Translations under genes and position numbers: made by a program | Notes under the pieces: generated by a model | The model's database searches: none | Told to the model about the DNA's origin: nothing | What the model saw: only the letters and a program-made list of their open reading frames with translations | Shown here: one piece after another, positions 7,056 to 36,505 of the stretch | Layout: each line of letters begins with the position of its first letter | Numbering within the stretch: position 1 is the first letter of the stretch | From: Berberis thunbergii | Taxonomy: Eukaryota > Streptophyta > Magnoliopsida > Ranunculales > Berberidaceae | DNA: 64,000 bases | Direction: 5' to 3' | Assembly: GCA_003290165.1 (NCBI GenBank) | Contig: QNQO01001171.1 | Span: forward strand, 124,001 to 188,000

Positions 7056-8822
7056 ATGGATGCTATGGATGTTGATGATCCAAGTGTGGGCATGATGTTT
7101 GATTCATTAGAATGTGGTTGGGAGTAATGAAAAAATTATGGGAAAAAAATGCCCTTTGGAGTTAGGAAGGAGTACTCGAATAAGAGTAGAATAGATAAGT
7201 TAATTATCAATGCAGTGTATGTTTGTTGTAAGCATGGTCTCAAGAAAGAAAAACACCCTCAAAAAGGTGTTGTCACTCAACAAAGATGGGATGTTAGAAC
7301 TGACTGCAAAGTAATGTTCAAACTGAGTTTGGATAGAGTAACTGGCAAATACAGAGTCAAAGAATTTATTATTGCGCACAATCATGATTTGGAGCCCAAT
7401 GAAATGACATATATGCTAAGGTCGCATAGGGAGGTAAACATATCACAAGCCTTAGCGATTGAATTGGCTTCTGACTCAGGTATTACTCCTAAGGCTACAC
7501 AAGAACTGTTGAGTAGGGAAGCAGGGGGTAGAAGTAATCTTGGGTTTCTATTAGAAGATCAAAAAACTTACCTAAGATCAATGAGACAGAAAGAGATGGT
7601 CAATGGAGAGCTTGGAGGTATTCTCCGGTATTTTGAGCAACAAAACTCAAAAAATGCCTCCTTTTATTATTCATTTCAGCTTGATAGTGATGATTTAGTT
7701 ACCAATATATTTTGGGCAGACTCTAAAATGCTTGCAGGTTATGCGGACTTTGGTGATGTGGTAACGTTTGATACCACTTTTGGCACTAATAGAGAGTTCA
7801 GACCTTTGGGAGTGTTCACTGGATTTAATAATCATAGAAAAATTGTGATTTTTGATGCAACACTTTTGTACGATGAGACCATTGAGTCATTTCTGTGGCT
7901 TTTTGAAACTTTTGTGAAGGCACATGGTGGTAAGAGACCACGTACCATCTTCACTGACCAAGATGCTGCAATAGGAAATGCTTTAGCTACAGGATGGCCA
8001 GATACATATCATGGGTTGTGCACTTGGCGCATAATGCAAAATGGAATCAAGCATTTGGGATGACACATGAAGAACAAGAATGTTGGTTTTTTTAAGGAGT
8101 TTAAAAGGTGTATGTTTGAGTACTTGGATGAAGTTGAATTTGAAATCAATTGGCAAAAAATGCTTAATGATTTTGACTTCAAAGAGAATAAATGGTTGGG
8201 TCGCATATATGCTTTAAAGGATAAATGGGCTAAGTGTTGTATGAAAAACACAATGACCTTAGGGATACGAAGTACACAACTAAGTGAATCGTTTAATAGT
8301 GACTTGAAAGATCACTTGAAATCCGACTTGAACATTTCATGTTTTTTCAAACATTTTGATAGGGTTTTAGAGCAAAAGAGGAATAATGAGTTGGAGGTTG
8401 AATTTTTTGCAAGGCAAAAAGTGCATACATTGGGATTATCTAGATCCCCCTTGTTGAAACAAGCCTCACAAATCTACACACCTTCAATTTTCAAACTTTT
8501 CCATGAAGAATTTGATCTTGCATCAATGGCTCTGATAAAAAACGAAGATCAAAATAAACACGAGTACATTGTTGCTTTTCATGATACAAAAGAGAAAAAA
8601 TTTAAGGTGTTTTGTGACCCTAGCTTGAATGTGGCAAATTGTAATTGCATGAAGTTTGAGACAATGGGAATATTGTGTTGTCATGTTTTGAAAGTGTTTG
8701 GCCGACTTTATATCATGGAAATTTCGAAAATGTACATATTGGATAGATGGACAAGGGGAGTGAAAGGTAAACGTGTATCAAATGAAGTGAGTTCAAGTAT
8801 GGAAGAAAATGTAAGTGATTGA
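7056..8822 (+). pseudogene. FAR1-type MULE transposase, broken
   Basis: Transposase of the FAR1/FHY3-related MULE family. An ATG at 7056 opens a short acidic leader (MDAMDVDDPSVGMMFDSLE), which loses frame through small indels near 7110-7130. The main frame runs from 7149 with a FAR1 DNA-binding domain (MPFGVRKEYS...IIAHNHDLEP, residues 1-84) and an MULE transposase domain (FDTTFGTNREFRPLGVF, then TDQDAAIG) at about 190-300. One in-frame TGA at 8061-8063 interrupts it; the same frame then continues 8067-8822 with the C-terminal part and a SWIM zinc finger (CNCMKF...CCHVLKVF). Apart from these lesions the protein is nearly complete, so the element probably lost autonomy recently. Confidence 0.9.
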
Positions 8823-9909
8823 GTTTGTAGGATCCAGTCATATCTTCTACGAATGACATTTCAAGTTTCGTTGAATAAGGACACACGGGCCAACACGGAG
8901 AGGTTTAAAGGTTGGCCCGTCAATGTCAATGTACCCTTTCAACCTCCAAAACAAGCACACCCGGGTGCGAGTTTGAGTTTGAGTTTGGGAAGTTACGACT
9001 CTTCCTTTTGGTTTGATGTAAAATGTCTTTCCTATATTAATTGCTGTATTTTTTTTTGTTAAGCTCTGTATAGCTCTGTAGTGAATTTTTTGTTCAGCTC
9101 TGTATTTCTACCATCTTCATTCTGGGTTATAGACAGATATGGAAGAAATACAGTTTTTTTTATGCTCTGATTTTTTGTTCATATGTAAATTTGCAGAGAA
9201 TTTCATTTGTAATTTGCAGAAAAAATTGTAAATTTGCAGAGAATTTCAATTGTAATTGCAGAGAATTCAATTGACATAGCATTCTGCATTGCAAATAACA
9301 TTCTGCATTGTAAATAGCATTATGCATTCATGTTCTTTATTCTGCATTGTAAATAGCATTCTGCATTCAATTACTGTAAAAAAAAAAAAAAAATCTGTAA
9401 TCTGCAAATTCTGCATTCATATTCATATGACATTCTGTAATCTGTAAGTAAAAATAGCAATCTTTCAATCAACCAATACTGTTACAAAAGAAAATAGCAA
9501 AAAAAAACAATCTTTCAATGAGCAATCTGTAAAAAAAAAAAAAAAAACCTCTCAATCAGCCAATACTGTTACAAAAGAAAATAGCAAAATAGCAAAAAAA
9601 AAAACAATCTTTCAATTAGCAATCTGTAAAAAAAAAAAATATATTGTAACAACAATCTGTAATCAGCCAATACTGTAAAAAAATATATATATATATTGTT
9701 CAATCAGCAATCAACAATACTACAAAATAAAACTATAAAAGAGCAAATACTGTAATAAAAAAGCAATCTGCAAATACTGTTACAAAAGAAAACCAAACCA
9801 TCATAAAAGAAGGTGTATTGATTCATCCATAATCCCATTACATAATAGAAATTCATTACAACATCTCATATACATTACAAAATAAAATTATAAAATAGAA
9901 CCTCACATA
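8823..9909 (+). other. MULE 3' region of transposase gene, AT-rich low complexity
   Basis: 8853-9000 still looks weakly coding (ends GASLSLSLGSYDSS), possibly the frameshifted C-terminal tail of the transposase. From about 9050 the sequence is made of iterated short words (CAGAGAATTTCA, GCATTCTGCATT, AATACTGTTACAAAAGAAAA, AATCTGTAAAA runs). No gene is seen. Confidence 0.5.
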
Positions 9910-27070: not shown

Positions 27071-29214
27071 CTATGAAAACAAAATAACATAAAAGTTAAA
27101 AATGACCTCTAACTGTCAGCACTCTGCAATACGTAAGAATACATGTTAACAAACTTACATCTGAGGTGATCAAAGTCACAAGCTCGGTGTAGCTCGGGTT
27201 GTTGTGACCATCACCATAGGGTATGAACTCATCTCCCTACCTCTCACTTTTGACATGAATTCCCTATAACTAATACGATTTGGAACACCAATCCTTAGTT
27301 TTTTCCATTGTTTGGGAAAACCCAACCCCGCAGCTTAATTGTGTTTGACCAGGCCATATTACATTGTATAGTTGTTGGTTTGAACTCCAACGATTTGGTG
27401 GCTTTGTATCGGGAGAGATGACAGACAATCCTGAATAGTTAGTCCAGTAGCCAATCTATAGATATACCCATTTCCTATCACGTCCAATACAGGACGGATG
27501 AGGGACCTATCTGAATTGTTGGAAATGTGGCTTTTTAAAATAAAAGAAAATGGGTGTGAATCTGGATTTGAACCCTGAATCTCTTTCTGATTTTAGTCTC
27601 TTTAATTGTTAGTCACATATCTACAATATAACTCTTTGTGGTAGAGTTTATAACGAGATTGTTAGGACTTGGACCCCTTGGGGGTACCACTCTTTTATGC
27701 TCGCAATTCGTCGGGTCGGGTCGAGTCATTAAGAGAGTAACCCATTCTTTTTGCTATAAATTTTGAATTTCTAAAGAGGAAATGAATCTAGACAGAATTG
27801 TGTACATGAATCTAGACATCCTCTTATTGCCACGTTTTAAATGCAATAACAAACGTTTTTTTTCTTAAATGCAATTTAATTCCACGTTTTGTTATGCAAA
27901 TGAATCTAGCCGATTTTTGTGTTTTGAATGAACCTTATTTTCCCTATAAATACAACACAACTTAGAGTTTAGAGAGATGAACAAAAGAGAAAAAAAGAAG
28001 AGAAAAACAAAACAAGAGTTCTTCCTTTTTGCAATAGAGAGATTTCGTTTTTGTAATTAGTTTTGTTTTTTTGTTTAGATTTTTTATCAAAGAAAAAATT
28101 TTCGTGTTGTTTATTTATTTACAATGTATTGATGATTCCGAGTAAAAGCAAGTGTTTAAGGGTGATAGTATTCCGTTCATCAAATGTGCAATTGATTGAA
28201 CGAGACAGAGAAGATTCTGGGCTGTTTTATCCTGGGGACGGCGGGGCTAGTACATTGCTTGCACAATCTTGGGCAGAGCCGCGAAACGTCTTAAAGAGAG
28301 CGACCTAGTCCGCGACTCAACCCAAGAACAAATTGGTACCTTCGTTCCTAACTTTTATTTGAATCTTTTACAGCTATTGAATTCTATACAGCAGTGACAA
28401 CAATTTTAAGACGTTTATTTCTGCTATGACTAAGATAAAAAGAATGATCCCTTTATTTTCCATAATATAAATTACGGAAAATATAAAGAAGATGGAACAA
28501 GTAATGAAATTGACTAGGTTGAAATAATACCCTGTGTTTCTAGGGAAATTTTGGTTTCATTACTTATAAGTATGTGATTATTCAATCATGTTGGGTTTGT
28601 AAGGATAACCTTTTAGCTAGATTGTTTGTATATATGCGAATTAGTCATGATTTTATATATTTAAATTGCATGAGATATTCTAGCAAAGAGTTTTTTCTTA
28701 TATATTAACAAATTGATATGTTGTCCTCCAAAATAAACGCAGATTAGATTGATTGCTTTGTTTCTTGTCTCAAAATGGGTTGAACATGCTAGATCAATCT
28801 GACATAGATTGAATACATATATATATATTGTTTCATGAAACTATAAGCATCTGTGGTTGCTTGGCTCAAAAATTGGGTTTTGAACAAGCTTCTATCAATT
28901 GAAAATAGATATTAAATGATAAAAGTCCGAGTGATCTTGATTGAAAAACTATTGTGGAGGCATTGTTTGATTGCACATCAATGCCATTTGTTTACATGAA
29001 ATTGACTTGTAATTATAAATAATGTTGAATGTTAGTCCCTTTTGCTTTGTCAATCTCTTAGTTTATTTGTACGAAATTGTCCTGTAAATAAGCTGAAATC
29101 ATATTGAGCTATGAGTCGTTTTGGAGTTTATTTAGATTGACAATTTGGCAATTTGGGAACACATGTTCATAAAAAAAAATCTGCAAAATATGGAGGGCCT
29201 ACAAGAAAAATTGT

Positions 29215-29460
29215 GATCAATAGCGTTTAAAAACCGCTATGGTAGGATACCATAGCGGTTTAGTAACCGCTATGACAGCCATCGCTATAATAGACCCAGG
29301 GGATATTATAGCGGTTTTAAAACGCTATGGTAAGTTTGGCTTTTATAGCGTTTCAAAACCGCTATGGTAGCCTCTTCCATAGCGTTTTAAAAACGCTATA
29401 GTAGACTCTAAAACCGCTATGGTAGACTTTACCATAGCATTTTAAGTATACATAGCAATT
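29215..29460. repeat. CACTA left subterminal repeats
   Basis: Clustered direct and inverted copies of a 10-12 bp word (ACCGCTATGG, CCATAGCGGT, AACGCTATGG and variants), roughly every 20 bp. In CACTA elements such arrays bind the TNPA-type protein; this role is inferred by analogy. Confidence 0.85.
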
Positions 29461-30412
29461 TTTTTTTTTTTTATCAAATGACTTTTTATTACATCTTATC
29501 ATGTATGCATTAGCCTGAGCACTCGAAATTCATTGTGACAAAGACAAGAAACACCATGTTGGTGATCAAGCAAAAGAAAATAAAATGTATTATTTTCACT
29601 TCCTTTTGCTAAAAGAAATGTTGAATGATCTAAACATTTTTGTGATGATGAATGTACATAATGTTTCAAGGGAAAAAAGGGAACAAAAGCAACGACATAA
29701 TTTTTGTGATGATGAATGTACATAACGTACAAACTCTTATTAATCTACACCTGCAACAATAACAATGACAGTAGAAACAACAACATCAACAGCAACAACA
29801 ACAGGGGCTATCGACAGCAACAACAGCAATGATAGCAACGACAGCAACAGCAGCAGCAGCCATACTAGAGTTTCTCCTAGTACACACCCCTTCCTTTTCT
29901 TCTTCATGTTATGAAATTGAAATCCCCTACCAAAAAGCCAAGGAGAGTCTACCCCAACCTGCTGAATCAATCAACTCAGATCAGAATTACTCTATATTTA
30001 GTGTCACCCCTAAAGTTGAGTTTCCTAAGGGAAGTACATTACAACATAAAAGCCATCATCCAAATGGACTTCTTGACAAATGCAAGTCTTGTTTTGGGAT
30101 TCTAGCTAATTGAAAACCGTTTACTTTGAGGAAAGTGTAGCAACATTTTCTCAACCAGAGAAGTTATATAATTTGTTAACAAGAATGGTTTGTTTTGAAA
30201 GAAAAATCTTCACTGACCTGCCCACCATGAATATTAGCAGCCTATACGAGCTTCAACTATGCAACTAACGGAAGAGTACATACCAACTTGCCACTAAATT
30301 TTCCATTGCCCTTCATACATTATTATAAGTCAGATTTATTTCAAGATAATAGCTACAGGACCTTGTCTATCTAGTCTTAAAATTTCTACAATTGGACAGC
30401 TTACCGCAACTA
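29461..30412. other. CACTA interior left of captured genes: microsatellite and unrecognised ORF
   Basis: 29745-29865 is a CAA/CAG-type trinucleotide tract that yields meaningless Ala/Thr or Leu/Val peptides. A plus-strand frame downstream (about 29870-30113) encodes HKSHHPNGLLDKCKSCFGILAN at its end. The CxxC context faintly recalls FLZ zinc fingers, but the evidence is too thin to name it. 30120-30412 is non-coding. Confidence 0.3.
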
Positions 30413-31393
30413 AGCCTGAAACAGAACCACCACCAGCATCATTGTCTAACAAGTTTCGGCATTTGGCATTCTTCTGAAGTAGATCCCTTGTTGTGATCAA
30501 AGCTGCAAAAATTTTGCATATGAAAGTAACTGATTATTTAAAGGTGTACTTGATTAAAACATAGGATGTAGGTTAGAAATGAACAGGGTTTACCTACCAT
30601 GGCCTCAGCAGAACCAAAGCACAAGGAAGAAGTAGCCAGACGTTTTACAAATGCAGCTACGTTTTGCATGTCATGTTGTCTTCCTTCACATAACATTATC
30701 TGCAGAGCTTCAGCTAATACTTCGCCATTATCTCTGTACAGCAAAAAAAAAAAAAAAAAAGGAAAACATGAATATTTAACAAATGCACCAGCATAGTGAA
30801 AGTCCATTTTATAAGCTAGTAGATTATGGACTCTTGCTCCAGATGTCATATCACATTTTAAATTTGATGTTGGCCCCTCTTGCTAATAGGGTAAATGCCT
30901 TTAGTTCCCATTTTCAATTTGGCCCTGGTCCCTCATTGTCAGTCAAGGATTACCTAGGTATGGCCTTGCACAATGACTATATAATTAGCTGTCTAAGATA
31001 AACCTTGACTAGATGATCAACTGATAGCAAGGGACCACAACCAAATTAAATTTAAAAGGGGATTAAACCAATTTACCCTAAAAGGGACCAACATCAAATT
31101 TACCCTTACTTCCACCCTATTAATGTTGTCACTCTTTATTTAGCTAAGCTAAGCACAACCATGTTCTAGTGACAACATTAATAAGGTCATGCTTGTCTAA
31201 AACAAGAGTGACATTATTAATTAGGTGGTATTAATATAGCATACATGAATATTTACAACAAGGCAAAAGAACCATCTTATCTGGTTGACAACAATTAAAC
31301 CTGTCAGGTCTATATTCAAGTAGCAGCTGGTAAAGCTGAACAAAAAATTCTTGCAGATCGACATTTAAGGCATCTAAACTGTTCCTCATCACT
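30413..31393 (-). pseudogene. Captured NOC3 (nucleolar complex-associated protein 3) fragment
   Basis: Three exon blocks match NOC3, a nucleolar protein of 60S ribosome biogenesis and replication licensing. They are about 31308-31393 (NSLDALNVDLQEFFVQLYQL), about 30597-30735 (EVLAEALQIMLCEGRQHDMQ onward to CFGSAEAM) and 30413-30503 (DLLQKNAKCRNLLDNDAGGG). Intron borders are retained (for example GTAGGT after 30597 and TTTTTGCAG before 30503), so capture was from genomic DNA. An inverted-repeat MITE lies in the intron between the first two blocks. Only a small C-terminal-half portion of the protein is present. Confidence 0.85.
30856..31103. mobile_element. Inverted-repeat MITE inside captured NOC3 intron
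   Basis: About 90-bp arms face each other: left from TTTAAATTTGATGTTGGCCCC (30857) and right, reverse-complemented, from GTAAATTTGATGTTGGTCCC (about 31102). Both continue through AGGGTAAAT and GTCCCT-type words to TCAAGG. The centre is under 60 bp. No TSD was fixed with certainty. It inserted into the captured intron or was carried along with it. Confidence 0.7.
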
Positions 31394-31450
31394 CTGAATG
31401 CCACAAAGATAAATGATATTGCAAAAATGATGTTGTTCCTTGTTTCTTAC

Positions 31451-32095
31451 ACAAAGTAGGAGTTATCAAACTTAAGAGGCTCATTTGTCCATGCACCATC
31501 AAAGCCTGATCTTTCAGGATGTGCCCTTCCCTACAATGCCAAAACCAACTAAACCGTATAGATGTGTCTATATACAAACATGCACGTACAATAGGCAGAT
31601 GAAACTATGTAAGACGGTTACCAATGTGTGTCCTCCAGTTAATGCTACTATATCTTTGTCTGACAGACCCATCCGATAGAAAATATCCCTCCAATGTTGC
31701 ACGCCTACAAGCCACAGTTATCAATGAATGTTTCAAGTGGCAAAGTTGTTGAGTGTCGCAAAGACAGTTTAATAATTTTGTGCATTAATTTCTCTCTAGA
31801 AATGGATAGTAAATCAACAAACGCATCATCAAGGTGAACATTAAGCTCATAAGTACAAGTTTCCTAATGTAAACATCAAGAAGGTTTTGTGTTACCTTTC
31901 TTAGCATCTGGAAGGCGTCCTTCCCTTGGAGAAACCATTGAATCCTGATAAGATAAACAAATAAAGTCACTAACAAGTGATTAGCAATAGATAAGTAACT
32001 AATTTCCCAAAAATATGTTACTAGCACACCTTTCTACCAGGAACAAAGTCAATGGTAGGCCCACCAGTGACCTCTATCGCAACAACTCTCGCAAT
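31451..32095 (-). pseudogene. Captured ascorbate peroxidase fragment (APX)
   Basis: Four consecutive exons with intact GT-AG borders: 32030-32095 (VVAIEVTGGPTIDFVPGRK), 31896-31944 (SREGRLPDAKK-type block), 31622-31704 ([20 protein letters not shown]) and 31451-31530 (RAHPERSGFDGAWTNEPLKF). These are the central APX segment containing the proximal haem-ligand His (TGGHTLG). The enzyme reduces H2O2 with ascorbate. N-terminal active-site exons and the C-terminus are absent, so no enzyme is encoded. The exons stay in phase with each other. Confidence 0.9.
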
Positions 32096-32262
32096 CTGAT
32101 AACATCAATCGATGCAAAGATGAGTTAACTGAGGATCTAAATAAAAATAAATAGATAAATAAAACAAGTAAGCTTAGGATAAATATAGAACAAAAACAGT
32201 CCAATTTTACAGCTAAAACAGAACACATAAAAAAGTTATACATTAACCACAAAACAACTTGC

Positions 32263-32388
32263 CTGAATCACAATTGAGTGGGCTATCAGGTTCTGGATGA
32301 GCCATTAAAGCAATTATAGCCCTACAAACTGACTGGAGAGTTCAAGCAAGGCTCCATGCAGTCTTCAAGATATCTAAGCAAATCTCTC
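32263..32388 (-). pseudogene. Captured ubiquitin-conjugating enzyme exon (PEX4/UBC21-like)
   Basis: One exon encoding GEICLDILKTAW, then TLQSVCRAIIALMAHPEPDS. This is the active-site cysteine region of an E2; the ALMAHPEPDSPLNCD wording is that of the peroxisomal E2 PEX4 (UBC21). The expected W before TLQSV is a TGA stop and a neighbouring P is L, both C-to-T/G-to-A changes. An AG acceptor precedes it and a GC-AG-type donor (GCAAGT) follows. A lone exon, not functional. Confidence 0.85.
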
Positions 32389-32399
32389 CTGTATGCATA

Positions 32400-33230
32400 T
32401 GAAAAAGGAAATAAGAACAACAGAAAGTGGAAAACACAAAAATGTTGATCAAAAAATTAGAAAGTTTGAGGAATTCTCAGTCTCACATACTTTACTGTAA
32501 TAAGATGTATGCTCATTTTTTACATAGCCACGTCCACAACATACAGTATACAAAACCAAATAATCAAATGTAACAAAACTATGAGCAATTCGTCAATAAC
32601 TTGAAAAGAAAAAGTTCATGGTATAGATATTATTTTTAAAAATCAACTTAAATTTTCATGGTTAAGAATATTATTTCTACAATCAATTTAAATCTTATAG
32701 TTTATATTCTGATTCAGCCATAAATCTCGGGAAATTTGAAAACATAGTGGTTCCTGTCTGAATCATATGTTTGGAAAAATGTCTGATTCAGATTTTCATC
32801 AAACATTAATATAACCCCCGAACAGCCTATGAACCAATGATATGATTTTCATGAGTTAAGAGGTTTCAATTAGAGCCTAAACAAACACTTCTCATCCCCT
32901 ATTATTAAAGATATTTACCTCTAGTTAGATATTATTAAAGATATTATTAAACCTCTAACTAATAAACACCCCTTAGCTAATAAACACCCCTTAGCACTTT
33001 CAACTTTGTTCATACAATTATTAAAAGGTTAACCTAATAGGCAACAAGAGCATACTCAGCATAAAAGATATCCGAAGGTTGAAAACTTGATGCATTTTGT
33101 TTTTGGAAAATACATACTAAAAGTCACAAGTTCTGAAGCACAAACTATTTAAACGCAACATGTCTTCTCAATCTACTCTTAGATGTTCATCCAAATATAT
33201 ATACTTAAGGGCAGTGATGTAAAAGATGGG
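32400..33230. other. Non-coding stretch between captured E2 and kinesin fragments
   Basis: AT-rich, intron-like, with a short repeated word (ATATTATTAAA..CCTCTA.CTAATAAACACCCCTTAGC, about 32930-33000). No exon recognised. Confidence 0.5.
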
Positions 33231-33236
33231 ATGTAC

Positions 33237-34281
33237 CTCCCTGGCACCAGAACGGGAAATATTTTCTGACCCAGCTAAATCAACCAAATTTAGCTTCCCG
33301 CATTTAATAAGCTCTTCACCTTTTGGAGTGGCTTTTTTATGTGAATTGTAATTGAAAACAATGAATGCGATCGACTAAAATTAGAAAACAAATGTTAACA
33401 CGGCACGAATTCACAACCTGAGATAAGCACAACAGCGATGGATTGATAATTACCTAGATTGCTTGTTTAATAAAGTTTCTGCGGTGCGACATTTTGCAAA
33501 ACCCCTTTCAAGTAGAGTTAAAATTTCACTTGCATTATAGCCTAGTCATATAAATTCTTTTGTTGAGCTGAGGGTCAAAAAACCTGCAGGATGCACAAAC
33601 ACAACATTGAATACAAAACAGAAGGAAATCATTGGGAAAATATTAGACAACGAGGAAATCAACTTAATATGCAAATTACATCAATGAATGGAAAATTTTC
33701 CCAAAACAAAAAAATTTATCGTTATCACAAATGTTTCGGACTTCAAGTAAATCTATTTTTGCTTCCATTCACATATGGCTTTCATATCAAAAAAAATGTA
33801 AATTTTACCCGTTTTCTACCCAAATTGTTAAAATAAAAAATATGGGTTTCATCCAACATAGCTCAAATTCATCAAATGTATCTGAAAACCCAAAAATCCA
33901 TTCACACAAGCTATAGATCTATATTTTAAAACTTCTTAATGAGAAAAATACCTTGTCGAAGGTAAAAACCCTATCAATTTGTTTCCCAGCAATGTTTTGA
34001 GACACTGCGACCTCTTTTTGGTAGTCGTTGCAGGTAACCACTTGCGGCGCATTGCTCCGCAACTCCTCGTCGTTGAATGGCCTAAACAACGGATGAAAAA
34101 CAAGAAATTAGTACACAAATGAGAGAGTCCAAAGCAAGTAAATTCATCAAATCAAGAGAGTGAAGTGAAACAAAAGAGAAAGATTCGAAATTTTGAGAAA
34201 CCCTAAAGTTGGATTCGCTTACCTGCAACGGAGAAGAACTTGAACGTTTACGCCCTTCTCTCTCTCGTGACGACTCGGCAT
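33237..34281 (-). pseudogene. Captured kinesin-5 N-terminus with internally deleted motor domain
   Basis: Starts with its own ATG (34281-34279): MPSRHEREKGVNVQVLLRC, exon 34223-34281. It joins in phase to 33952-34081 (RPFNDEELRSNAPQVVTCND), then 33454-33583, then 33237-33374 ([17 protein letters not shown], switch II). This is the BimC/kinesin-5 spindle motor. Exon 33454-33583 fuses the start of one exon (VFDPQLNK-like) to NASEILTLLERG. The P-loop GQTGTGKT segment between them is gone, so ATP binding is impossible. GA/CT-rich sequence upstream (34290-34560) may be the captured 5'-UTR and promoter. Confidence 0.9.
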
Positions 34282-36505
34282 CTCTGCAAATCGAAGAGAG
34301 GGTTCGAAATGAGAAGTGGATCTAATTTAATCGAGAGAGAAATCGATCGATCTCTTCAACTTCTTTCTCCCTGCGCCCTCCCTCTTCCTGTGTCGACTCC
34401 CTCGATCTCTCTGTATCTCGATTTCTCTCCCTCGCTCTCTCCCTGGATATATCTCTCTCCCTCCATCTTTTTTCTCCCTAAACTGTCTCTCGATCTCTCT
34501 CTCTTTGGGTCTCACGATCTCTCTCTTTCTCGATCTCTTTTGGTATGAAATATGAGTATTTGGGCGAGAGCGAGGGAGCAGAGTGATGCATATATGCTGA
34601 GTGAAATTTTTGGTTAAGCGCCAAAAGGCCCGCCTGAATTTAGATAGCTTTTTAACTGTGTCATGTCCTTAGAATTTGGGTTTTTATAGCATAAACGTTA
34701 AAACCGCTATTGTCAATTGCTATTAATAAGTAATTTTGGTGTAGTAAAGTCCTTCCGTTTCAAACACAAACACAATTTTTATGTGTGTGTCAAATTAATT
34801 GTTTTGGAATCCATTAGCCTAAACAAACTTTGTTCCAAGGATTGGAGTTTAGTTTTTTTGCACTATGTACCTTTGTTACCTTGGGTGGTAGTTCTTGTTG
34901 TCAAATTGGGTTGGGAGCAGTTTTCTATGCAAGGATACAACCCCATGACAACATTTGAAAGGTTGGAAAGAGGGCCATACAAAATCCACATGATTTTGAG
35001 ATTTGTGTACTTTTAATAATTGGCATGCTAAACTTTGTTATGTTCATAGTTTTGGATTTTGAAAGATGATTGATATTGTAAATATGCTCATAGTCCATAC
35101 ATTTTGAACCAATTTTAGAAAACATTTGGTGGATCATGCATCTGTTTTTAATTTTGCATATCCACAGCGTTTGACAGATTGTATAACATCTAGAAGCCTG
35201 GAAGCGCTTATGTTCATAACATTTTGAATCTTTTTAAGGCTGATTTAAAAACATAGTCAACTAAATCCCTGTCAGGAAGTGAAATCAAATTAGTTATCAT
35301 TATGACTAGCGTGATTAGGGATTGACATATTTGTACACATGTTGACAATGTAAAATGTAGTCTAGACTCTAAAACCATGGATGACTAACTAGAGAAGATT
35401 GTGTATGAATAGAACACCATGCTTTAAAATTAAATTTCATAGAAATTTAATTAAAGGTGATGCTCTTTTAGGCTTTCTGAGTTGGAATATCATGAAATCT
35501 GTATCAATAAATTCCATTTGAACATTTCGTGAGAAGTGAACAATATCATCTATGCATAAATTCTTTAGATAATGAGTATTTGGTTCTATGATAATTATGT
35601 TATGCACTTTGGATGATTCAGTCTATTTTGGTGAGAACAATAATTGATCTATTGTGAAAATTGGGTATGCTTCTATATCTCAATACTATTGATGGAAAGA
35701 AAACTTTGTGATTAATGTTACAGTTGATGTTTGATGTTAAACTGAAATAAGGAGGCTATAAGGAATCATTTGTATACAGATCGACCTGTGAATTTTGTTC
35801 TTGATGTCACTGTTTAAATGATTTTGCTCAGACCATAAGTTGGCCGAATTTTCACATGGTTTGATTTTTTAACATTTGAAGATTATGGCATGAGGGAAAG
35901 TTGATTTTGATAAGGTTGGAGGATAAAATCCATAGTAGCTATTTGGTGCCTTACGAATTGCTATTTGTTTATTCAATGAACGGTTTTAGGAGTGGAGGGC
36001 CACCCACATCTTCATATCTTCTTCATTTAGTATTCAATGTTTTACTATTTGGTAGAGGACATGAATTCTTAAGGAAATAATGTGTTCTCATGATGAGAAT
36101 GTTGGTGGATCTAATCTTTTTTGTTGATGGCAATCTAGAACAATTCAAGCTATTGCTTGGTTTTGCAATGGGACCTTTACCATCTAAGTCTGCAACTAAA
36201 TTCCCAAAGGTTGCTTTTATGCACAAATATAGCTTGGTGATTACAAAGTTTGAAAAATTCAGAAGCTGAATTTAAGATACGTTTTCTAATGATATTTTGT
36301 GTTGGTTCTTGAACTTAAAAGAAAATGAGAATAGCGAGGTGAATAGAATGGGTATTTATTCACTATTCTCATCGTGTGGGTCCTTAACATTTGAATGCAC
36401 GGTCTGCTTCAGCTAGAAAAATGAGTGTCATTTAATATGCATTCAAAAAGTGGCTAAACTTGTTTATGAAAATAGTTAGAGGGGCCAAAGTTCAAAAGTC
36501 CCTTA

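Follow-up and report, generated by a model that had tools for sequence, protein, structure and literature searches.

How transposons take up host exons is an unsettled question, and several described plant systems come close to the one reported here, a family of CACTA elements in Berberis thunbergii that is represented by an element within a window of 64,000 nucleotides (the whole stretch of DNA that was analysed; contig QNQO01001171.1, here C1171:124001-188000). The Pack-CACTA type is already known, and its precedent is Tgm-Express1 of soybean, a 5.7 kb CACTA element whose payload, introns as well as exons, comes from five unrelated host genes (Zabala and Vodkin 2007, PMC1947982). According to the available part of that report, its captured exons are spliced as cassette exons into one transcript, and because of this its genes presumably share one orientation. 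The Berberis element resembles it in its multi-gene payload of exons and introns. As described there, however, Tgm-Express1 is a single element in a host-gene intron and is read from the host promoter, whereas the Berberis elements form a many-copy family, set apart further by modules that are interchangeable and by the E2F-like block that one end carries.

Pack-TYPE and Pack-CACTA elements are described more generally as non-autonomous terminal inverted repeat (TIR) elements that take up coding DNA and reshuffle it (Gisby and Catoni 2022, PMC8903248; Catoni et al. 2019, via PMC13317346), and the proposed origin of hybrid elements is the joint mobilisation of neighbours with terminal deletions (PMC8903248, PMC13317346). 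The available parts of these accounts treat the insertion orientation of elements, not captured genes facing one end, and contain no E2F-like end block. The Tpn1 family of Japanese morning glory is another CACTA family with captured genes; it is of the En/Spm type, comprises 339 non-autonomous copies and has captured genic regions, some of which are transcribed as chimeric RNA (PMC5105172). The orientation of its captured genes is not discussed in the available part of its description. Helitrons move by a rolling-circle mechanism and have neither TIRs nor target duplications, unlike the Berberis CACTA family. In maize, as far as the accessible description goes, their multi-gene payloads arise stepwise and are partly common to related elements (PMC3288121), a likeness to the partly shared payloads in Berberis. 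In Brassicaceae, E2F-type motifs have been multiplied by transposons (review PMC12595863, citing Henaff et al. 2014); the available part of that review places them in hAT, PIF/Harbinger and MULE miniature inverted-repeat transposable elements and in Helitrons, whereas the Berberis block occupies a fixed place at one CACTA end of elements with gene payloads.

The element in the window is securely a non-autonomous CACTA transposon of the Pack-CACTA type, with decayed ends. A preliminary description of this DNA had placed degenerate CACTA termini and subterminal repeats around it, and both ends and repeats were located. The left terminus at 29197 reads GCCTACAAGAAAAATT and the right terminus, with its last base at 34746, reads AATTTTGGTGTAGTA, each a CACTA end gone degenerate. 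Where the canonical termini are CACTA...TAGTG, the window copy has GCCTA...TAGTA, and related insertions have them intact or with 1-2 changes. The AAAACCGCTATGGTA-type subterminal repeats, several copies of which lie at 29213-29445 and one at 34692-34713, are both direct and inverted, as in CACTA (En/Spm) elements. The flanking triplets, AGG and AAG, are equal at 2 of 3 bases. A Pfam scan of all six frames found no transposase domain in the element, and its movement would presumably have occurred in trans, through a CACTA transposase.

Between these ends, the exon map and Pfam agree with the earlier account of kinesin-5, PEX4-like E2, APX and NOC3 exons, with introns kept and all on the minus strand; Pfam supports the domain level, and the finer names are those we take these genes to bear. 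The kinesin part required amendment, as it consists of four exon pieces, the third of which is apparently two exons fused by an internal deletion, and the original kinesin start codon is indeed kept. Exon borders are AG/GT throughout the array, save for the exceptions named below, and splice sites are mostly intact. With exons joined (minus-strand pieces only), Pfam matches were Kinesin at 6.7e-22, UQ_con at 8.9e-11, peroxidase at 3.8e-20 and CBF at 3.7e-11; the plus strand of the element gave 0 Pfam families in 3 of 3 frames. The element and its parts, in window coordinates, are as follows.

29197..34746, no strand assigned: non-autonomous Pack-CACTA element of 5550 bp, without a transposase domain, its CACTA-type ends and modules common to 12 other insertions
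29197..29445, no strand assigned: left (L) end, degenerate terminus GCCTACAAG and subterminal repeats of the AAAACCGCTATGGTA type
30405..30502, minus strand: NOC3 exon N3
30598..30733, minus strand: NOC3 exon N2, GT donor in the window copy (GC in 7 of 9 insertions compared)
31301..31393, minus strand: NOC3 exon N1
31450..31530, minus strand: APX exon A4, truncated at its 3' side, without GT
31622..31704, minus strand: APX exon A3
31896..31944, minus strand: APX exon A2
32030..32095, minus strand: APX exon A1
32263..32388, minus strand: PEX4-type E2 exon, GC donor, one in-frame stop
33237..33374, minus strand: kinesin-5 exon K4, native frame shifts inside
33454..33583, minus strand: kinesin-5 exon K3, contains stops, apparent two-exon fusion
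33952..34081, minus strand: kinesin-5 exon K2
34223..34281, minus strand: kinesin-5 exon K1, with ATG and GT donor
34282..34600, minus strand: purine-rich leader 5' of the kinesin ATG, derived from either the transposon or the kinesin gene
34635..34746, no strand assigned: right (R1) end, degenerate terminus TAGTA, short subterminal region

The earlier account also needs amending in that this element is one of many related copies; its termini are common to many other insertions. Across the genome (2.24 Gb in 11,732 contigs), a 1 kb NOC3 query gave at least 55 matches (best 40 of 310 candidates scored), some of them the NOC3 genes themselves, and a query from the kinesin block and right end gave at least 48 (best 40 of 895 candidates scored). 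All 12 other distinct insertions that were read to both ends have CACTA-type ends and perfect 3-bp target duplications. The contigs compared frequently come as haplotype pairs, 9 of them showing 98.7-99.9% identity in their 5' flanks, and C9934 holds another assembly copy of the window element between the same flanks (99.6%). Throughout the family, unlinked host-gene pieces, introns included, lie between CACTA ends. The view of the window element as unusually rich needs qualification, since related elements also carry several host genes. Copies of the NOC3-APX block diverge from their consensus by 0.5-1.2% each, less than their distance to the donors; the divergence sample comprised 10 of the 10 copies given for this block and 6 of 7 for the kinesin block, the split copy L033 being left out.

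For one insertion, L018 on C1431, the joined flanks match C149, C6302, C326 and C6896 at 81-86% without a break at the junction, the insertion being absent from these places, and these four matches are probably, as expected, paralogous empty copies of the target repeat. Both L018 flanks match their own contig at 100%. The flanks are repetitive and have at least 40 further partial matches (78-87%), of which four span the joined flanks.

Comparison of the elements distinguished at least two left-end types and three right-end types, R1, R2 and R3 (R3 from L023 alone), and payload blocks occur in varied combinations. The NOC3-APX-PEX4 block stands with R2 ends and other modules in L010 and L012, and the kinesin block with R1 ends and other modules in L030-L035; the payload recurs with the ends at other sites, as in Pack-CACTA elements. 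Two junctions inside the window element carry short shared sequence.

32201..32204, minus strand: PEX4/APX donor junction, 4 shared bases, TTGG
32993..32995, no strand assigned: junction of the NOC3-APX-PEX4 lineage and the kinesin/R1 lineage, 3 shared bases, AGC; present also in L029

L021 and L030 represent the parental sides of the junction at 32993-32995, and L010 looks as if it arose by deletion from an L021-like element, with 3 bases of filler. Across the family, ends and payload modules are common to different elements and are exchanged between them by way of deletions and junctions of short homology. This pattern fits capture and repair at the DNA level, followed by exchange between elements.

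The right end carries a further conserved feature.

34618..34634, minus strand: E2F-like block GGCGGGCCTTTTGGCGC, 112-128 bp from the tip, its position fixed in three diverged right-end types

The E2F consensus is TTTSSCGC. The motif TTTGGCGC lies at offset 116-121 from the tip in 12 of 14 R1/R2 right ends (mutated in L014 and L024), is absent from the first 600 bases of the 13 left ends read, as also of L029's left part, and is found a single time in interiors; conservation of the block in the R end thus contrasts with its absence from the L ends that were read. The R1 and R2 consensus sequences and the single R3 are 43% identical overall and 69% identical over their first 45 bases, and their best 18-base window, which holds the block, reaches 89% against 78% for the best window elsewhere. 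Exact genome matches to CACTAC followed by 88-118 bases and GGCGGGCNTTTTGGCGC numbered 264 + 261 = 525, haplotypes included, against 0 + 0 for the reversed control pattern. A CACTA end near position 2506 of L027 is without the block. The 5' end of En/Spm is the one with the shorter subterminal region. Because the Berberis block occurs at one end only and the subterminal region there is short, as at the En/Spm 5' end, the comparison suggests that R is the promoter end of the element. The literature searched on E2F with CACTA yielded no report of an E2F-type block at CACTA ends.

In the ten segments scanned, recognisable captured host genes read from the R end toward the L end. A two-strand Pfam scan at E 0.01 covered 10 of 18 segments; it left out short pieces, positions 6303-7345 of L010, which lie inside an R2 end, and L027 and outer L023, which are mostly flanking DNA. 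It recovered 13 host-domain families on the minus strand (Pkinase, CPSase_L_D2, IMS, AAA, SART-1, CBF, Kinesin, UQ_con, peroxidase, Ist1, WD40, FPN1 and Cyclin_N) and no clear one on the plus strand. Eight of the ten segments held a host-domain match, with none on either strand in L033 and L023. A split of 13 to 0 corresponds to a two-sided probability of ~2.4e-4; ten of the 13 families lie above the Pfam cut-off, in the scan or with exons joined, and 10 to 0 corresponds to ~0.002. A symmetric exon finder applied to the module library (L027 segments and outer L023 left out) called 29 exons on the minus strand against 4 on the plus strand, of which one covers the kinesin leader, a CT-rich stretch, two face stronger reading frames on the minus strand and one, in L010, has no recognised match. 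By eye, further minus-strand exons could be assigned to PsbS, V-ATPase E, Ca-ATPase, RCC1-like and WAV2-like genes; with Pfam, PsbS and Ca-ATPase gave no match, and the other three gave weak ones. On the plus strand, the retroelement pieces RVT_3 and Integrase_H2C2 occur in the L030 and L032 payloads, and one stretch of L034 matched five overlapping families, DUF4834 just above its cut-off, and is tentatively read as membrane-like low complexity. No statement of a one-way rule for captured genes was found in the literature searched, whose coverage is incomplete and does not prove absence.

In L027, taken in window orientation, a plus-strand plasma-membrane H+-ATPase exon recognised by eye reads toward the CACTA end at 2506, and a minus-strand Lon-protease-like exon, also by eye, lies farther on (L027 features at 1138-1431, 2506 and ~8490-8926). 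The H+-ATPase exon belongs to neighbouring CACTA sequence and was excluded from the orientation count.

We consider it probable that the family consists of Pack-CACTA elements with DNA-level capture, module exchange, a promoter-like R end and a one-way payload, and it is this family-wide one-way payload, together with the E2F-like block of the very end from which these genes are read, that makes it notable. Host pieces would have been captured at the DNA level, and R would be the 5' promoter end of the element, predicted to be active in dividing cells. From there, spliced non-coding or nonsense chimeric RNAs would run across the sense exons. Insertions antisense to the R promoter would yield double-stranded RNA against essential genes, or disturb transcription, and would be lost, so that the one-way order stays. 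The preliminary description had proposed either a chimeric transcript or antisense/small RNA. Chimeric transcripts of the window array are possible; antisense RNA from the R end would not be expected, because the captured pieces lie in sense orientation to this promoter-like end. Should the R end be active, sense housekeeping exons could enter new transcripts from hundreds of sites. Furthermore, with captures from many genes facing one conserved promoter-like end, the family allows a test of whether direction arises at capture or through later filtering, and of whether cell-cycle control belongs to the element.

Several points weigh against this interpretation. A protein other than E2F might bind at the E2F-like block. 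Three of the 13 families (Ist1, AAA and WD40) fall below Pfam's cut-off, not every capture may be independent, and RVT_3 and the L034 DUF4834 match on the plus strand exceed their cut-offs; with the L034 stretch counted as a gene, the split becomes 13 to 1 (~0.002). No empty allele of L018 itself appeared among the best 40 of 5813 candidates scored. An autonomous partner was not found either: on contigs that have both, none of the best 150 Transposase_21 matches lay near any of the first 100 R ends out of 525. The genome is rich in Transposase_21 (7808 first-look candidates, best 150 scored), and in the same comparison, made by eye, the closest one to an R end on a shared contig was ~79 kb away.

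Direction might instead have been set at capture, if transcription-linked copying, for instance by repair synthesis switching among nascent unspliced RNAs or onto the exposed single strand of an R-loop, joins sense to sense. This would account for the 13 to 0 orientation despite neutral exons, and retained introns, short-homology junctions and donors that look like broadly expressed housekeeping genes accord with it. However, DNA template switching with later loss gives the identical pattern, and there is no direct sign of an RNA step, introns being retained; we hold this explanation to be unlikely. We also regard as doubtful the explanation of the orientation bias as a small-sample effect, in which a few multi-gene captures were spread by module exchange. 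Modules are widely common between elements, and the ten segments scanned include eight with a host-domain match. Nevertheless, the count is of distinct domain families rather than copies, the genes come from unrelated families, and the 10 above-cut-off families alone still give ~0.002. A broader proposal, that this CACTA lineage acts as a directional exon assembler with an S-phase (E2F-type) promoter end, sense-only transcription-linked exon uptake and products spliced in dividing cells, is speculative and would be rather improbable.

A functional chimeric gene, read from the kinesin ATG and under selection for its fusion protein, might be suggested by the intact ATG and mostly intact splice sites, and one exon-skipping combination does reach 180 codons, in which three donors are partly read in native frame. 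The reading frames nevertheless do not support a fusion protein. Splicing the 11 donor-bearing exons in order from the kinesin ATG, with A4 omitted, meets a stop after 65 codons, and among 1024 exon-skipping combinations the longest reaches 200 codons and 0 read all four donors in native frame. In the NOC3-APX block, substitutions against the consensus amounted to 47 in 5432 exon cells and 84 in 9972 intron cells, equal rates, with 9 synonymous and 38 non-synonymous changes (pN/pS, the ratio of non-synonymous to synonymous change, 1.26). This sample comprised 9 of the 11 insertions given (L024 and L029 are incomplete) with L016 left out, and the kinesin and PEX4 exons stand outside the test. 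The NOC3-APX exons evolve neutrally, at the intron rate; this intron-like evolution gives no indication of a protein function, and the captured proteins are not maintained. Apart from the GC donor of N2 and an N3 donor missing from 1 of 9 insertions, splice sites are mostly kept. A protein search with a short APX fragment, in public data that may lack this species, gave 32 matches, the best-scoring at 81% over the whole query and the others at no more than 85% over part of it. With these results, selection for a fusion protein is very improbable.

The captured host DNA has identifiable donors elsewhere in the genome, as in Pack-CACTA elements. These likely sit on four different contigs at 90-96% identity: C43 for kinesin-5, C477 for PEX4, C834 for APX and C9197/C853 for NOC3. 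The APX match on C834 is 96.2% identical across 781 bp including introns (window 31433-32209), against 84% for the paralog on C710. For PEX4, C477 reaches 95.3% across 256 bp (32201-32456) and the paralog on C1033 reaches 89% across 338 bp (32201-32538). For NOC3 (30400-31400), C9197 reaches 93%, with a NOC3p domain farther up on that contig, and the paralog on C606 reaches 87%. C43 matches the kinesin-5 part at 90.3% across 308 bp and at 79% across another 172, and two adjacent exons there are stop-free; it is a candidate donor among several copies, other kinesin-5 copies of the same type having been left out of the DNA-level comparison. A donor search with the kinesin-5 tail domain profile PF13931 gave no match, and its control was silent as well. 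A segmental duplication or true gene cluster lying by chance between CACTA-like sequences, for which retention of exons and introns in gene order would speak, is highly improbable, and the duplication is rejected on the donor map: the likely donors sit on four different contigs with differing identities, the four genes were not adjacent on the contigs examined, and identical modules recur in other insertions, each of which has a target duplication of its own, alongside other sets of genes. Neither of the two refuting conditions named in the preliminary description, neighbouring donors and unshared termini, thus applied.

C574, C487 and C1582 were also considered as kinesin-5 donors and rejected as too distant (68-82% over short exon stretches), C43 being closer. 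Kinesin-5 copies on C238, C6916, C1607 and C10608 form inverted pairs ~5-9 kb apart, possibly an inverted duplication able to give hairpin RNA. Further multi-copy kinesin-5-like fragments, at ~65-80%, have stop codons in common, and some lie beside a K2 exon, which suggests elements with kinesin captures longer than that of the window. Additionally, a C-terminal exon of APX, absent from the window element, has dozens of matches at 71-86%, true APX genes included, which suggests that other repeats, too, have spread with APX pieces in them.

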